A stretch of DNA of 64,000 nucleotides from Armatimonadota bacterium (GCA_025060455.1 JANXBY010000033.1:1-64000), one strand, 5' to 3'. Shown: positions 22,360-31,091, counted from the first letter of the stretch. Notes: generated by a model from the letters alone, not told the origin. Numbers and translations: made by a program.

Positions 22360-23757
22360 TCACAGCCGCACCGCGTGCACCCCGTCCCACCGGGAGGGCC
22401 GTAAGGCCTGCTCCCACAGCCGAGCCTTCACCAGCTCGGGTGGCATGCCCGTGCTGAGCAACACCGCCACCACCCCCGTCACGAGGCCCGCGGCGAAGGA
22501 ACAGCCCGACCAGCGCACGTAGCGGGACCCCGCCACCACGGCTCCGCAGTCCAGGAGGAGGTCCTCCCCGGGCGCCCCGAAGTGCGCTTCGTTGCTGAAC
22601 CACGCGTAGCGGTCGGGCTGCGCCGCGCTGGTGGCGGCCACGGGGACCACCTGGGTCTGGGAGGCCAGGGTGTCCCCAAAGTGCCCGTACGCGGCGGGCT
22701 CCAGGCAGTTCTCGGGCCGTCCCTCGGACAGGTTGCCCGCCGCACACACCAGCAGGGCCCGCTGCCGGGCCAGCTCGTCCACCACCGCCAGCAGCGCGCA
22801 GGACTGTACCGTCTCGGGCTGCGAGCGGTCGACGCCCAGGCTGAGGTTGTACACCAGGGGGCGGCTGAGTAAAGGCGCGCCGGTGTCGGGGTGCCGGAGA
22901 CCGGCAGCGGTGAGCTCGTACGCCCACCGAAGGGCGTCGGCCAGCTCGTAGGTGGCGGTGGCCAGCTCGCGGTTCAGCAGGGCCACCAGCACCAGCCGGG
23001 CGCCGGGTGCCACCCGTCTCACCAACGACGCCACCATGGCACCGTGGTACGCGCGGTACTCCCGCATCTGCTCTTCCGTGGCCAGCAGGGGCGACCAGGC
23101 CTGCGGGCGCCACCGCTCCTCGAGCCCGCACCCCTGGCCGGCAGGCTCCGGAAGGGGTGACCAAACGGGAAAGGCCTCGGGCACGTGGTGTGGCCACTGT
23201 ACGTAAACGTCCACGCAGCCTGGTTGCAGGCGCGGTAGGCCGTCTGCCCCGAGGCCAGGGCCGCTGTCCAGGATCACCACCGTGACCCCTTCGCCGCGGG
23301 GCCGGTAGGCCGCCCGTTCGTAGTCGAGCAGCCCCACGCGGGCAAACGCGGGCTGGGTGTGGAAGTCCTCCGCCCGTGCTTCCGGAGCGCGGATGGCGCG
23401 GTCGGGAGTTGGGCTGCCGTGCGCCACCTCCGCCTGCCCGCGCGCCTCTAGGTCCAGGGACGCGTAGGTGGCCGGTGCCGACTCCGACAGCCGCCGCGCC
23501 ACCTCCACCTCTGCCTCGTCAGCTTCCACCACGAAGCGCCTCACCGTGCGGTGCCAAGGAACTGGCCTTTGCGCCCGCGGGACGGCGACGGCCTCCCACC
23601 GCCACCGACCCCGGGATTGGCGGGACACGAACACCACCCCTGGCCGCGCCGCGGGGACCAGGCAGCGCACGGGGTGCAGCTGCTCTAGGGGGTCCAGGTT
23701 GGTCTCAGGGCAGGCCACCAACAGGTGGCCTCTCAGGTGGCTCCACCGCCCCGGCAT
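22360..23757 (-). CDS. cytoplasmic subtilase (S8 peptidase) paired with CHAT protease
   Basis: 465-aa subtilisin-like protease. The catalytic residues can be placed: Asp164 in VVILDSG, His238 in YHGAMVASLV, oxyanion Asn342 in VCAAGN, Ser420 in SGCSFAAG. The usual GTSxA..P reads GCSFAAG, with Cys for Thr and no Pro. No signal peptide or membrane segment is present, so it should act in the cytoplasm. The first 140 residues match nothing I recognise and could be a prodomain or recognition domain. The ATG at 23757 follows GAGGGAGGGTGAGG and lies inside the 3' end of the TPR-CHAT gene (53-base overlap), so the two are translationally linked. Confidence 0.75.
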   Translation of the reverse strand: MPGRWSHLRGHLLVACPETNLDPLEQLHPVRCLVPAARPGVVFVSRQSRGRWRWEAVAVPRAQRPVPWHRTVRRFVVEADEAEVEVARRLSESAPATYASLDLEARGQAEVAHGSPTPDRAIRAPEARAEDFHTQPAFARVGLLDYERAAYRPRGEGVTVVILDSGPGLGADGLPRLQPGCVDVYVQWPHHVPEAFPVWSPLPEPAGQGCGLEERWRPQAWSPLLATEEQMREYRAYHGAMVASLVRRVAPGARLVLVALLNRELATATYELADALRWAYELTAAGLRHPDTGAPLLSRPLVYNLSLGVDRSQPETVQSCALLAVVDELARQRALLVCAAGNLSEGRPENCLEPAAYGHFGDTLASQTQVVPVAATSAAQPDRYAWFSNEAHFGAPGEDLLLDCGAVVAGSRYVRWSGCSFAAGLVTGVVAVLLSTGMPPELVKARLWEQALRPSRWDGVHAVRL

Positions 23758-26578
23758 CCTCACCCTCCCTCGCGTCCACCGGCTGCACCGCCGGAAGTCG
23801 GGCGTCGGGGTCGCCCGCCACCACGAATCCGGCCCAGTGCCACGGGTGCTCCCACTCCCGCCGGAGCCGCAGCCCTGCGTCCCGCAGGGCCTGGGAAAGC
23901 CGCGCGCCCGCACACGCGGCAGCGTACAGCTGGCGCATGAACTCGGCAGCCGAACCATCGTGGACGGCCCACAGGGACACCACCACTGCCCGGGCGCCCG
24001 CGTGGAACCACGCTCGGGTAAAGCCCACCAGCTCGTCCCCCGGAAGCACCCGGGAGGAAGCCGTCTCGCACCCGCTCAGCACCACCACCTCGCAGCGCAC
24101 CTCCGAGGTCAGGATGTCCGCCACGTACACCGGACCGTGGGTCAGGTGGACCGAAGAAAGCAGCGGGGCTTCCGGCCGGAACCGGCAGTGGGCTGCTACG
24201 TGCGCGACTCCCGCGGTCCCGAGGAGTTGCAGGAACTCGGCCGGGGTGGGGTTCTGGCGCAGCTGGCCGCCCGTGCGGGCGGCCACCCAGCGGGCCTCCG
24301 CCACCGCCCCCGGCAGCCGGCCCCCGAAGTCGTCGGCCACGCATACCACGGGGCCACCTCCGGTGTGCGGGCGCCGAAGCAGGCCCAGAAGCGAGCCCGC
24401 GGGCAGGTAGCTCACCTCCCACCGGTCCCACACATACCACCTTCCCTCGCAGAAGGCGTGGAAGGGCAGCCCGTGCAGCAGCCCAAAGGGCGCTACCAGC
24501 AGGCGGCGGAACTCCTTCAGGTGCGGCTCGAGGGGACGGAGCAGAAGGTCGTACAGCCGCTGCAGGACCGTGCGGGCCTGCTCCAGGCCCTGGCGGGCGG
24601 GCAGCCGACCTACGGCGTAGGCCCGGAGGCCGTTGATCCACAGTGCCGCGGCCCGCGCCACCTCCCGGGCCCCGCACGTCCGGGCCGCCCACACGCCGCG
24701 GTCGGGTCGCAGGACGAAGGCCAGCAGGTGGTCTGCGGCCACGTAGTACTCCACCAGGACCGTGTCCGGCGCGAGATCCGGAAAGGCCGGCCGCGCGGCG
24801 CGCCAGAGGAGCGAGGTGTCCGCGGCAGGGTCGTCCAGCTGCAGGCGCCACAGCAGCTCCCGCACCTGGGCTTCCGGGTGGGGCGCGTCGGTTCCCGCGG
24901 CTAACGGAAGATCCGCAGCGTCCACGTCCGCGAACACGCCCCTTCGACAGGCCTCCAGGAGCCGCCCGAGCTCCTCCGCGGGCTGTCCCGCCGGGCGACG
25001 GAGCCCCAGGCCGTGCGAGGCAAGTTGCCACGCCATCCCCCTGGATTTGGCGGCCTGGGCCGTTTCCCACGCTCGGGCCCACCGTCCTCTTGCCCACAGG
25101 TCCAGCACCGCGCCCGCGTACAGCTCCGCCACCTCCGCGAACACCCCCGGGCGCAGGTCCGCGGGCAGCCACGCCAGCATCCGGCCCGCCCACCGCACGC
25201 CGCTCAGCAGGTGTCCGGTGCGCCGTTGCGGGCGCAGGGAGCTGAGCCGTCGGTGTGCGGCGGCGCACAACCACGCCACCTGGCTGCGCAGGCCCACCCG
25301 GAGCGCCTCTCGGGCGGACTCCACCGCCGGGGCCGTCTCCCCTCGGGCGGCGTGCACGTCGCTCAGCACCAGCAGCGCCCTGCCCATTCCTGCGGGGCTG
25401 TGGACGCGCTCCCACACCCCGTGGGCTTGCTCCGCCAGGGGGAGGGCCGCCGACGGGTTCCCCTGGCGCACCCGTGCGGCGGCCAGCTCACACGCGGCCG
25501 CGGCCTTCCACGCCTCCCGTCCCACGTGGGCGAGGGACGCCAGGGCCGCCTCCAGCAAGCTGGAAGCACCTGTCAGGTCTCCCCGGTGGCGCAAGGCGAC
25601 CGCGGCGAGGTACCTGGCCCGCGCCGCCTCTGCGGCGAACCCCGCGGCGTCCAGCTCGCCCGCGAGATCCACGCCGTGTTGCGCCACGCGCTCGAGCTGC
25701 CCCAGGTACAGGCGGCACTCCAGGGCGAACACCCGGTAGGCGGCCGCGGCCGGGGACACACCTGCGTGCTGGTAGCGGGAGGCCACCTGCTCGAACGCCC
25801 GCAGGGCGTGCGCGTACCGACCCTGCGCCAAATCGGCCCACGCCTGGGCCGCGGCCACGCGCGCGCACAGCAAGGGGCTTGCCGTCGCCTCCGCGCACGC
25901 CATGGCTTCCCGCAGGACCGGCGCCGCCTCCCCGTGGCGGCCCAGCTGTGCGAGAAGCAGACCCGCGTTGTGCTGCGCCACGGCCAGGTCCAGGGCGGCC
26001 TGGCTTCCCAAAGCCCGGAACCGGGCGGAGGCGGCCGCGTATGCCTGTAGGGCCTCTTCCACCCGACCGAGGTACTGGAGAAGGGTGGCGCGCTGCGCCT
26101 GCACCCGGGCCGCGTGAAGGGCGGTGGAGCCGTGGGACGACAGCACGGGCTCGATGCGGTCCGCGAGCTCCAGCGCCTCCTGGTACCGGCCCTGGCGGAA
26201 CAGCGCACCCATCCGCCCCACTCCGCACCGGGCTGCCAGCACCCCCTGGCCGCACTCCTCCGCCAGGCGCCTGGCGGCTTCGTAAGCCTGCTCTGCCTCG
26301 CGCACCCGCTCACACCACAGCAGCGCGTTGGCCATTGCCAGATGGGCGACCACCCGGGCCACCACGTCTTGGCCCGACTCCGCGTACTCCACGAGCTCCC
26401 GGGCCCTCTCCAGCGCCTGCTGCGGTTGGCGGTGGGCCAGGCGGTCCAGCTGGTCCTTCGCGCGCTCCACCGTGCCGACGTGAGGAGGTCCCAAACGGTC
26501 CCGCAGGAACGCCACCGCCCGCCCCCGGGCGGCGGCGTCTGCCCAGGCCTGCAGCAGGGACTCACCGTCGGGGGTCAC
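23705..26578 (-). CDS. TPR-CHAT domain protease
   Basis: 957-aa protein with a long helical N-terminal region of TPR-like repeats (residues about 30-520; for example [18 protein letters not shown] and [18 protein letters not shown]) and a C-terminal CHAT domain (about 620-930). CHAT is a caspase/separase-fold cysteine protease. The dyad is present: His797 in VAHVAAHC and Cys837 in [12 protein letters not shown]; further CHAT hallmarks are [46 protein letters not shown] and [14 protein letters not shown]. No signal peptide is seen. The GTG at 26578 has no obvious Shine-Dalgarno. It is the first gene of a two-gene operon with the subtilase and is divergent from transketolase. Confidence 0.85.
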
Positions 26579-26591
26579 GAGGGCCGTGTTC

Positions 26592-26621
26592 TTGGAAGCG
26601 GGCCGCGCTTCCTGCTATGGT
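26592..26621 (+). promoter_or_regulatory. putative promoter of transketolase
   Basis: TTGGAA (26592-26597) and TATGGT (26616-26621) are 18 bases apart; the -10 is extended by TGC. It lies in the 71-base gap between the divergent CHAT and transketolase genes. Confidence 0.45.
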
Positions 26622-26649
26622 GGACGCGAGTTGTGGCTGGAGGGAGGGG

Positions 26650-29327: not shown

Positions 29328-31091
29328 GTGGACGCATTCCGCCGTTCGTCGGCAGGCCTGCTGGCTCTGAGCCTGGCCCTGGTGGTGCTGGGGGGTGTGG
29401 TGCGCACCACGGGTGCGGGGGACGCCTGCCCGGACTGGCCCCTCTGCCACGGCCGCTGGATCCCGCCACTGGAGCCCCTGGTGCTGCTGGAGTGGACCCA
29501 CCGGCTGGTGGCCGCGGTGGTGGGGCTGTGGGTGGCGGTCCAAGTGGTCTGGTCGTACCGGCTGCGCCCGGAGTTGCGGAAGCCCGCGTGGGCCGCCTTG
29601 GGGCTGGTGGTGCTGCAGGCGCTGCTGGGAGGCGTGACGGTGCTGAGCGGGCTTGAACCATGGCTGGTGGTGCTGCACCTCGGCACCGCCCTGCTGTTCG
29701 TGGCTGCGGTGGTGGTGCTTTGGCAGCGCGCGTGCGGGCTGGGGCCGGTGGCTCGGGACGACCGCAGCCGGGCCTTTCGTGGCGCGGTGTTGGCGGCGCT
29801 GTTGAGCCTGTACGTGCTGATCCTCCTGGGCGGCTACGTGGGTGCTTCGGGGGCCGGGCTGGCGTGCCCGGACTGGCCGCTGTGCCGGGGAGCCGTGTTG
29901 CCCCCACCGGAACGTGGGGTGCTCGAGCACTTCGCGCACCGGTTGTGGGCGGTGCTGGTGGCGGTGCTGCTCGGGTGGCTGGTGGTGCGGGCCCGGCAGG
30001 ACCGGCCGGACCTGCGGCGGCTGGCGCACGCGGCGGCAGGCCTGTACGGCGTGCAGATCTTCGTCGGGTGGTTGAACCTGCTGAGCGGCCTGCACTTCGG
30101 CGTGGTGAGCACGCACCTGGGCCTGGCCGCGGTGCTGTGGGTGATGGTGCTGGTCCTGCTGGTGCGGGCGGGACAGCAGCCCGAGTCTGCCGCGGTGGAC
30201 CGGGCGCGTCCACAGGCCCCCCGGTGGCGGGTAGCGGTGTCCGACTACGTGGCGCTCACGAAGCCGCGGATCGTGGTGCTGTTGCTCGTGACCACCGCGT
30301 GCACCCTGGTGGTGGCGGAGCGGGGCCGTCCCTCGGCCCTGGTGGTGCTGGCAACCCTCGTGGGCGGGGCATTGACCGCGGGTGCTGCGAACGCGCTGAA
30401 CTGCGTCCTGGACCGGGATGTGGACGCGGTCATGCAGCGCACCCGCGACCGAAGACCGGTGGCCGCGGGTCGCATCTCCCCGGCCCGGGCCGTGGCCTTC
30501 GCGGCGGTGCTGGGGGCGGTGGGCTTCTGGGTGCTGTGGCGGGGTGCGAACCTCCTGGCAGCGACCCTGGCGGTCGCGGGCCTGGTGTTTTACGTCCTCG
30601 TGTACACCGCGTGGCTGAAACGCACGACCCCCCAGAACATCGTGATCGGCGGGGCCGCGGGCGCGGTCCCGCCCCTGGTGGCGTGGGCGGCGGTCACCGG
30701 GCGGGTGGAGCTGCCGGCCCTCCTGCTGTTCGCGGTGGTGTTCCTGTGGACGCCTCCCCACTTCTGGACCCTGAGCCTGAACCTGAAGGAGGACTACGCG
30801 GCCGCCCGCATCCCCATGCTGCCTGTGGTGCGGGGCGAGGCGGAGACCCGCCGTCAGGTGTTCCTGTACACGGTGGCCACGGTCCTGGTGACCCTCCTGA
30901 TGGTGCCCACGGCGGAGCTCGGCGGGTTGTACGCGTCGGCCGCGGCTGTGTTGGGTGGGGGGTTCCTGCGGCGCGCGTGGGCGCTGTGGCGCGGGAGCGA
31001 GGAGGCGTGGTCGGTCTACCGGTACTCCCTCGCGTACCTGGCCCTGCTGTTTGGGGCCATGGTGGCCGACCGGTTGGTGTTTGGGGTGTGA
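29328..31091 (+). CDS. heme A synthase-heme O synthase fusion (CtaA-CtaB)
   Basis: 587-aa membrane protein that should carry out both last steps of heme A synthesis. Residues about 1-290 are CtaA: two four-helix repeats, the heme-ligand His in EWTHRLVA and EHFAHRLWA, STHLGLA, and a Cys pair in each outer loop (CPDWPLC twice). Residues about 300-587 are CtaB/UbiA prenyltransferase: TKPRIVVLLLVTT, NALNCVLDRDVDAVMQRTRD with the metal-binding Asp motif, and LWTPPHFWTLSL. The fusion order (heme A synthase first) is the reverse of the reaction order. It implies an aa3/caa3-type oxidase elsewhere in the genome. GTG start, uncertain. Confidence 0.9.
   Translation: MDAFRRSSAGLLALSLALVVLGGVVRTTGAGDACPDWPLCHGRWIPPLEPLVLLEWTHRLVAAVVGLWVAVQVVWSYRLRPELRKPAWAALGLVVLQALLGGVTVLSGLEPWLVVLHLGTALLFVAAVVVLWQRACGLGPVARDDRSRAFRGAVLAALLSLYVLILLGGYVGASGAGLACPDWPLCRGAVLPPPERGVLEHFAHRLWAVLVAVLLGWLVVRARQDRPDLRRLAHAAAGLYGVQIFVGWLNLLSGLHFGVVSTHLGLAAVLWVMVLVLLVRAGQQPESAAVDRARPQAPRWRVAVSDYVALTKPRIVVLLLVTTACTLVVAERGRPSALVVLATLVGGALTAGAANALNCVLDRDVDAVMQRTRDRRPVAAGRISPARAVAFAAVLGAVGFWVLWRGANLLAATLAVAGLVFYVLVYTAWLKRTTPQNIVIGGAAGAVPPLVAWAAVTGRVELPALLLFAVVFLWTPPHFWTLSLNLKEDYAAARIPMLPVVRGEAETRRQVFLYTVATVLVTLLMVPTAELGGLYASAAAVLGGGFLRRAWALWRGSEEAWSVYRYSLAYLALLFGAMVADRLVFGV

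Follow-up and report, generated by a model that had tools for sequence, protein, structure and literature searches.

Two protease genes that overlap on one strand of an Armatimonadota genome, the first encoding a TPR-CHAT cysteine protease and the second an S8 subtilase, raise the question of what such a pair does in the cell and on which protein each enzyme acts. The genes lie at positions 22360–26578 of a 64,000-nucleotide stretch of DNA, referred to here as the window. They had been described in a sequence-only reading as a 957-residue TPR-CHAT protein and a 465-residue cytoplasmic subtilase, and the question was approached through the two proteins themselves, their relatives and the genes that accompany them.

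The TPR-CHAT gene occupies 23705–26578 on the minus strand, starts with GTG and encodes 957 residues. Its product matches the Pfam CHAT family (E=1.5e-48) and several TPR models, including TPR_12. In the AlphaFold model (mean pLDDT 78.9), a long TPR superhelix precedes the CHAT domain; helix pairs in the model and the TPR matches place the superhelix at approximately residues 34–496 (25091–26479, minus strand) and the protease domain follows at residues 671–923 (23810–24568, minus strand). The dyad reported by the sequence-only reading was found at His797 (codon 24188–24190, minus strand) and Cys837 (codon 24068–24070, minus strand), and all 36 of the related CHAT proteins retain it. Foldseek searches with the model returned separase and Csx29/TPR-CHAT structures among the matches, so that the structural check proposed earlier bore out a TPR-CHAT fold resembling those of Csx29 and separase. 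DdvA structures also appear in the list, in alignments that may involve the TPR helices alone. A profile search of the window's own genome gave a single CHAT match.

The subtilase gene (22360–23757, minus strand) starts with ATG and encodes 465 residues, which match Pfam Peptidase_S8 (E=1.3e-14). Its catalytic domain spans approximately residues 155–451 (22405–23295, minus strand), where the triad Asp164, His238 and Ser420 and the oxyanion residue Asn342 stand in a subtilisin fold, as is characteristic of the S8 family. These four residues, likewise claimed by the sequence-only reading, occur without exception in the related S8 proteins (37 of 37). Compared with the CHAT protein, S8 is modelled with lower confidence (pLDDT 63.1); Foldseek matched the model to subtilisins at E values of about 1e-7, and the best sequence match in the PDB, covering only residues 321–436, is an intracellular serine protease (E=3.4e-5). 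A search for an N-terminal hydrophobic stretch in the window's S8 revealed none, in agreement with the absence of a signal peptide and the cytoplasmic location suggested earlier. Signal peptides and lipoboxes were called throughout from a reading of hydrophobicity rather than by a trained predictor.

Ahead of the catalytic domain, residues 1–128 (23374–23757, minus strand) may comprise a prodomain-like alpha/beta domain and a linker, the latter containing a conserved HGSPTP motif (23404–23421, minus strand). The order of strands and helices in this part of the model, which is of low to medium confidence, is compatible with a subtilase prodomain, and the region is kept in 6 of 7 host-family genomes. 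Because it matched no Pfam family, gave no I9 propeptide match at E values up to 10 and did not resemble the N-termini of exported S8 proteins in a profile comparison, a prodomain is a possibility that we infer from the predicted fold.

The end of the CHAT gene and the start of the S8 gene overlap at 23705–23757 (minus strand), which confirms the 53 bases given earlier, the S8 start being taken as the ATG at 23757. An overlap of this length is peculiar to the window's genome: in relatives the two genes either share 4 bases or are separated by a short gap, and the tail of CHAT responsible for the longer overlap is not conserved among them. With dN/dS values of 0.12–0.30, which indicate purifying selection, and with catalytic residues invariant among the relatives of both enzymes, the intact protease pair is not due to chance; both proteases are apparently active. 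Frameshifts are present in 2 of 7 family genomes, one in the CHAT gene (genome G001, L013:7808-10709) and one in the N-terminal part of the S8 gene (genome G004, L016:8500-9942). They are perhaps assembly errors in metagenome-derived genomes, the alternative being real decay.

The host family comprises HRbin32-like Armatimonadota, a GC-rich MAG lineage close to bacterium HR32. S8 is encoded in all seven family genomes and in none of the 36 remaining genomes of the order; in 7 of 7 it lies directly downstream of TPR-CHAT at the same chromosomal place, flanked by transketolase, with acyl-CoA ligase as a further flanking gene in the four genomes of the genus. Another genome of the order (G025) encodes TPR-CHAT without S8. 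Between the CHAT start and the start of the divergent transketolase gene, a 15-base element (26610–26624), which reads TCCAC[CG]ATAGCAGGA on the minus strand, is conserved in 7 of 7 family genomes within an otherwise diverged stretch, making it a candidate promoter element of the CHAT or the transketolase gene. Read in the transketolase direction, the element contains TGCTATGGT, which resembles an extended -10 box. Elsewhere in the window, at 29328–31091, a 587-residue frame fuses haem A synthase (CtaA) with haem O synthase (UbiA/CtaB); in G004 and G006 the haem synthase locus matches the CtaA-like half only.

This setting bears on whether the pair serves in conflict or abortive defence, as the sequence-only reading had proposed. 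A trigger sensed by the TPR region would then unleash both proteases to arrest or kill the cell, and TPR-CHAT proteases are indeed used in type III-E CRISPR immunity (PMC10028731), while the S8 gives a weak match to the PADLOC "subtilase" model (E=4.6e-6). However, the locus is fixed on the chromosome and vertically inherited in the host family, its flanks are of housekeeping type, and signs of mobility or of a neighbouring defence system were not found. The transketolase, acyl-CoA ligase and haem genes had no PADLOC match, a neighbouring ABC transporter gene merely cross-hits generic ATPase models, and PADLOC has no model for this CHAT and recognised no system of this composition. There is no direct-repeat array at 10–40 kb, and searches with S8 of plasmids and of viral contigs returned no relatives. 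Nor was a gasdermin gene met beside the protease in the host family, where the neighbours are those named above. We consider a defence role very improbable, and that part of the sequence-only reading is not upheld.

Outside the host family, S8 relatives with 32–35% identity were recovered by a single genome-collection scan from three contigs of Chloroflexota, where TPR-CHAT immediately precedes each of them. The pair is present in 5 of 5 genomes of one Chloroflexota order and in a further Chloroflexota genome (G151). The non-exported S8 proteins form one clade with support of 100/100, their CHAT partners do likewise (100/100), and the branching of the two trees inside this clade matches closely. 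In each of the 13 genomes of the clade, the CHAT and S8 genes are neighbours in the same orientation, which substantiates the earlier suggestion that TPR-CHAT recurs beside S8 genes without a signal peptide. As judged from these sequences, the two genes have travelled together and the pair is old. It might be supposed that the two enzymes are independent members of one stress regulon, with different substrates and without cutting each other or an anti-sigma factor. The operon-like layout, with gaps short or absent, and the existence of TPR-CHAT cassettes from which S8 is missing would fit such an arrangement, but the persistence of the pairing across phyla and the congruence of the trees suggest more than a common promoter, and co-regulation of independent proteases therefore appears unlikely.

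A CHAT profile applied to 386 genomes identified further TPR-CHAT proteins in other phyla, and a one-phylum sample of 251 genomes contained 25 matches. S8 is encoded next door downstream in 19 of these 25 and a zf-HC2-type protein upstream in 21, some of the missing neighbours reflecting contig ends. Among distant, weaker TPR-CHAT matches (L056-L071), S8 was present within a 1.5-kb flank in 1 of 16, which indicates that pairing with S8 characterises this subfamily rather than CHAT proteins generally. The wider form of the cassette, seen in several other phyla, combines a zf-HC2 protein with TPR-CHAT and an exported S8, and an ECF sigma factor is often present as well. The S8 proteins of those phyla nearly always have a clear signal peptide or lipobox, whereas those of the host family and Chloroflexota have neither.

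The predicted export of most S8 relatives is central to the relationship between the two proteases. In a direct cascade, CHAT would cut the linker or N-terminal region of a cytosolic S8 zymogen, and the activated S8 would degrade further targets. Such processing would suit the N-terminal domain and conserved linker ahead of the S8 catalytic domain, the intact catalytic sites of both enzymes, and the strict adjacency in all 13 genomes of the non-exported clade, in which the sigma factor and zf-HC2 genes can leave. SAVED-CHAT, moreover, reportedly acts on a caspase, a case of a protease acting on a neighbouring protease. Yet because most S8 proteins encoded beside TPR-CHAT are predicted to leave the compartment in which CHAT resides, the cascade is not general and would be possible only where S8 is cytosolic. 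Subtilases usually mature by self-cleavage, the S8 N-terminal region is poorly modelled and differs between host-family and Chloroflexota members, and the more constant neighbour of CHAT is the soluble, anti-sigma-like zf-HC2 protein. Taken together, direct activation of S8 by CHAT is conceivable but rather improbable.

Attention therefore turns to that more constant neighbour. In the Chloroflexota order, genes for a sigma factor and a zf-HC2 protein precede CHAT in 4 of 5 genomes; there and in other phyla the sigma factor is of a divergent ECF type and the zf-HC2 protein is soluble, and Sigma70_r2/r4 domains were detected in two further cassettes. It is important to note that zf-HC2 proteins of the soluble kind do not necessarily serve as anti-sigma factors. 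A profile of the Chloroflexota sigma factor found no sigma gene in the neighbourhoods of the host-family pairs, including the window, and no homologue beside the unlinked zf-HC2 gene in the host-family neighbourhoods. In the host family, a protein combining a zf-HC2 finger with a beta-sandwich is encoded away from CHAT-S8 (G000 C14 at about 3.4–4.0 kb, G005 C4, G001 C25, G006 C9 and G004 C3), and in 5 of 5 family genomes its gene stands beside the same conserved XRE regulator, which is divergently oriented and unlinked to CHAT-S8 (L132:2649-3988). Full-length relatives of this protein occur in 5 of 7 genomes of the order that have CHAT-S8 and in 0 of the 36 that do not. Of the other two CHAT-S8 genomes, G002 contains a weak partial match and G003, which is ~94% complete, gave none; a match in G011, among the 36, touches the finger motif only. 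The XRE and zf-HC2 locus is likely to be the other half of the module. In G351, the sigma factor and zf-HC2 genes are likewise apart from CHAT-S8, and this arrangement, together with that in the host family, indicates that the module splits into halves, of which CHAT-S8 is one.

Because relatives of the pair usually adjoin a sigma factor and its probable inhibitor, a simple model would suggest that CHAT and S8 supply the two proteases of a gene switch under proteolytic control, and so constitute one of its two halves. The TPR coil would keep the CHAT domain inactive until a partner or trigger is bound. Activated CHAT would then cut one particular protein in the cytosol. The most likely substrate is its usual neighbour among the relatives, the zf-HC2 and beta-sandwich protein, and this cleavage would free a regulator held by that protein: an ECF sigma factor in the relatives and possibly the XRE protein in the host family. 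S8 would act as the second protease of the module. Where it stays cytosolic, as predicted for the window's clade, it would either complete the breakdown of the protein already cut by CHAT or itself be activated by CHAT; in other phyla the exported S8 would constitute an output of the module. Gating by the TPR region, the choice of the zf-HC2 protein as substrate, the sequence of cleavage events and the role of the released regulator are inferred. The core of this model, in which a TPR-gated CHAT cuts a zf-HC2 inhibitor to release a regulator and S8 is the second protease, is the reading we prefer, tentatively and at a little under an even chance. A more specific version seems doubtful. It holds that a cytosolic cascade of CHAT and then S8 destroys the soluble zinc-finger inhibitor in a system related to the Craspase sigma switch but independent of CRISPR, and that one lineage split the module into CHAT-S8 and XRE-zf-HC2 halves, with control rewired from sigma factor to XRE regulator.

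The components of this model recall several described systems. According to a review, ECF54 sigma factors of Actinobacteria have a conserved genomic context with carboxypeptidase, subtilase and CHAT domains, for which proteolytic control is proposed (PMC8999054). The statement in the sequence-only reading that the pair was not known as a described system accordingly needs partial revision: CHAT and subtilase genes occur together both in that context and in the window, and the window's pair is a variant of a kind already noted in the literature. A literature search on TPR-CHAT with subtilisin, under those words, found nothing. The genome of a Nonomuraea actinobacterium carries, in order, S8 (with no obvious signal peptide), an ECF sigma factor (Sigma70_r2, 1.3e-9), a CarboxypepD_reg-like protein and TPR-CHAT, a cluster that matches the ECF54 context by gene content, its sigma factor, like those of the other relatives, not being assigned to the ECF54 group. 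In contrast to the ECF54 context, the window has no sigma gene adjacent to the pair, its CHAT gene runs directly into the S8 gene, and the putative CarboxypepD_reg-like partner of the host family carries a zf-HC2 finger and is located elsewhere in the genome. That partner has a weak CarboxypepD_reg match (E=0.011), and it does not resemble the Nonomuraea protein at a significant level. Whereas degradation of the ECF54 sigma factor is supposed to proceed without an anti-sigma factor (PMC8999054), a zf-HC2 protein is the recurring partner in the relatives described here.

In type III-E CRISPR systems, Csx29 cuts Csx30, an inhibitor of the ECF sigma factor CASP-sigma (PMC10028731). Csx29 is the nearest solved bacterial relative of the window's CHAT in architecture: both are TPR-CHAT proteins with a His/Cys dyad, and the Foldseek matches include Csx29. 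The proposed chain, in which a protease acts on an inhibitor of an ECF sigma factor, would also be shared with Craspase. However, the window's CHAT scores 41.4 bits with the NCBIfam Csx29 model, compared to a cut-off of 300, and the locus differs from type III-E CRISPR in having no Cas7-11 gene or repeat array nearby and in having an additional S8 protease. A comparable chain operates in type III CRISPR, where CalpL cuts the anti-sigma factor CalpT, which holds the ECF sigma factor CalpS (PMC11417357); CalpL is a SAVED-Lon protease rather than a CHAT protein, and no subtilase is involved. The window's S8 itself is reminiscent of bacterial intracellular subtilisins (ISPs) in its predicted cytosolic location and intact catalytic residues, and differs from them in its longer N-terminal region, which belongs to no known family, and in its tie to a CHAT gene.

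To our knowledge, TPR-CHAT proteases have been seen in action almost only in CRISPR systems. The cassette of sigma factor, zf-HC2 protein, TPR-CHAT and subtilase is widespread, apparently independent of CRISPR and provided with an obvious candidate substrate, and it may reveal the role of TPR-CHAT before its recruitment by CRISPR. The soluble proteins of the module could be suited to production in E. coli and to mixing in the tube.

A candidate CHAT-S8 fusion (L052) was rejected, the S8 frame merely overlapping CHAT out of frame. TPR-CHAT proteins encoded on plasmids of Caballeronia and Streptomyces have no S8 alongside. Immediately downstream of TPR-CHAT on the Caballeronia plasmid (L044:5663-9813) lie a secretion gene of the ShlB/FhaC type and then a filamentous haemagglutinin-like gene, and the cluster adjoins type VI secretion genes.
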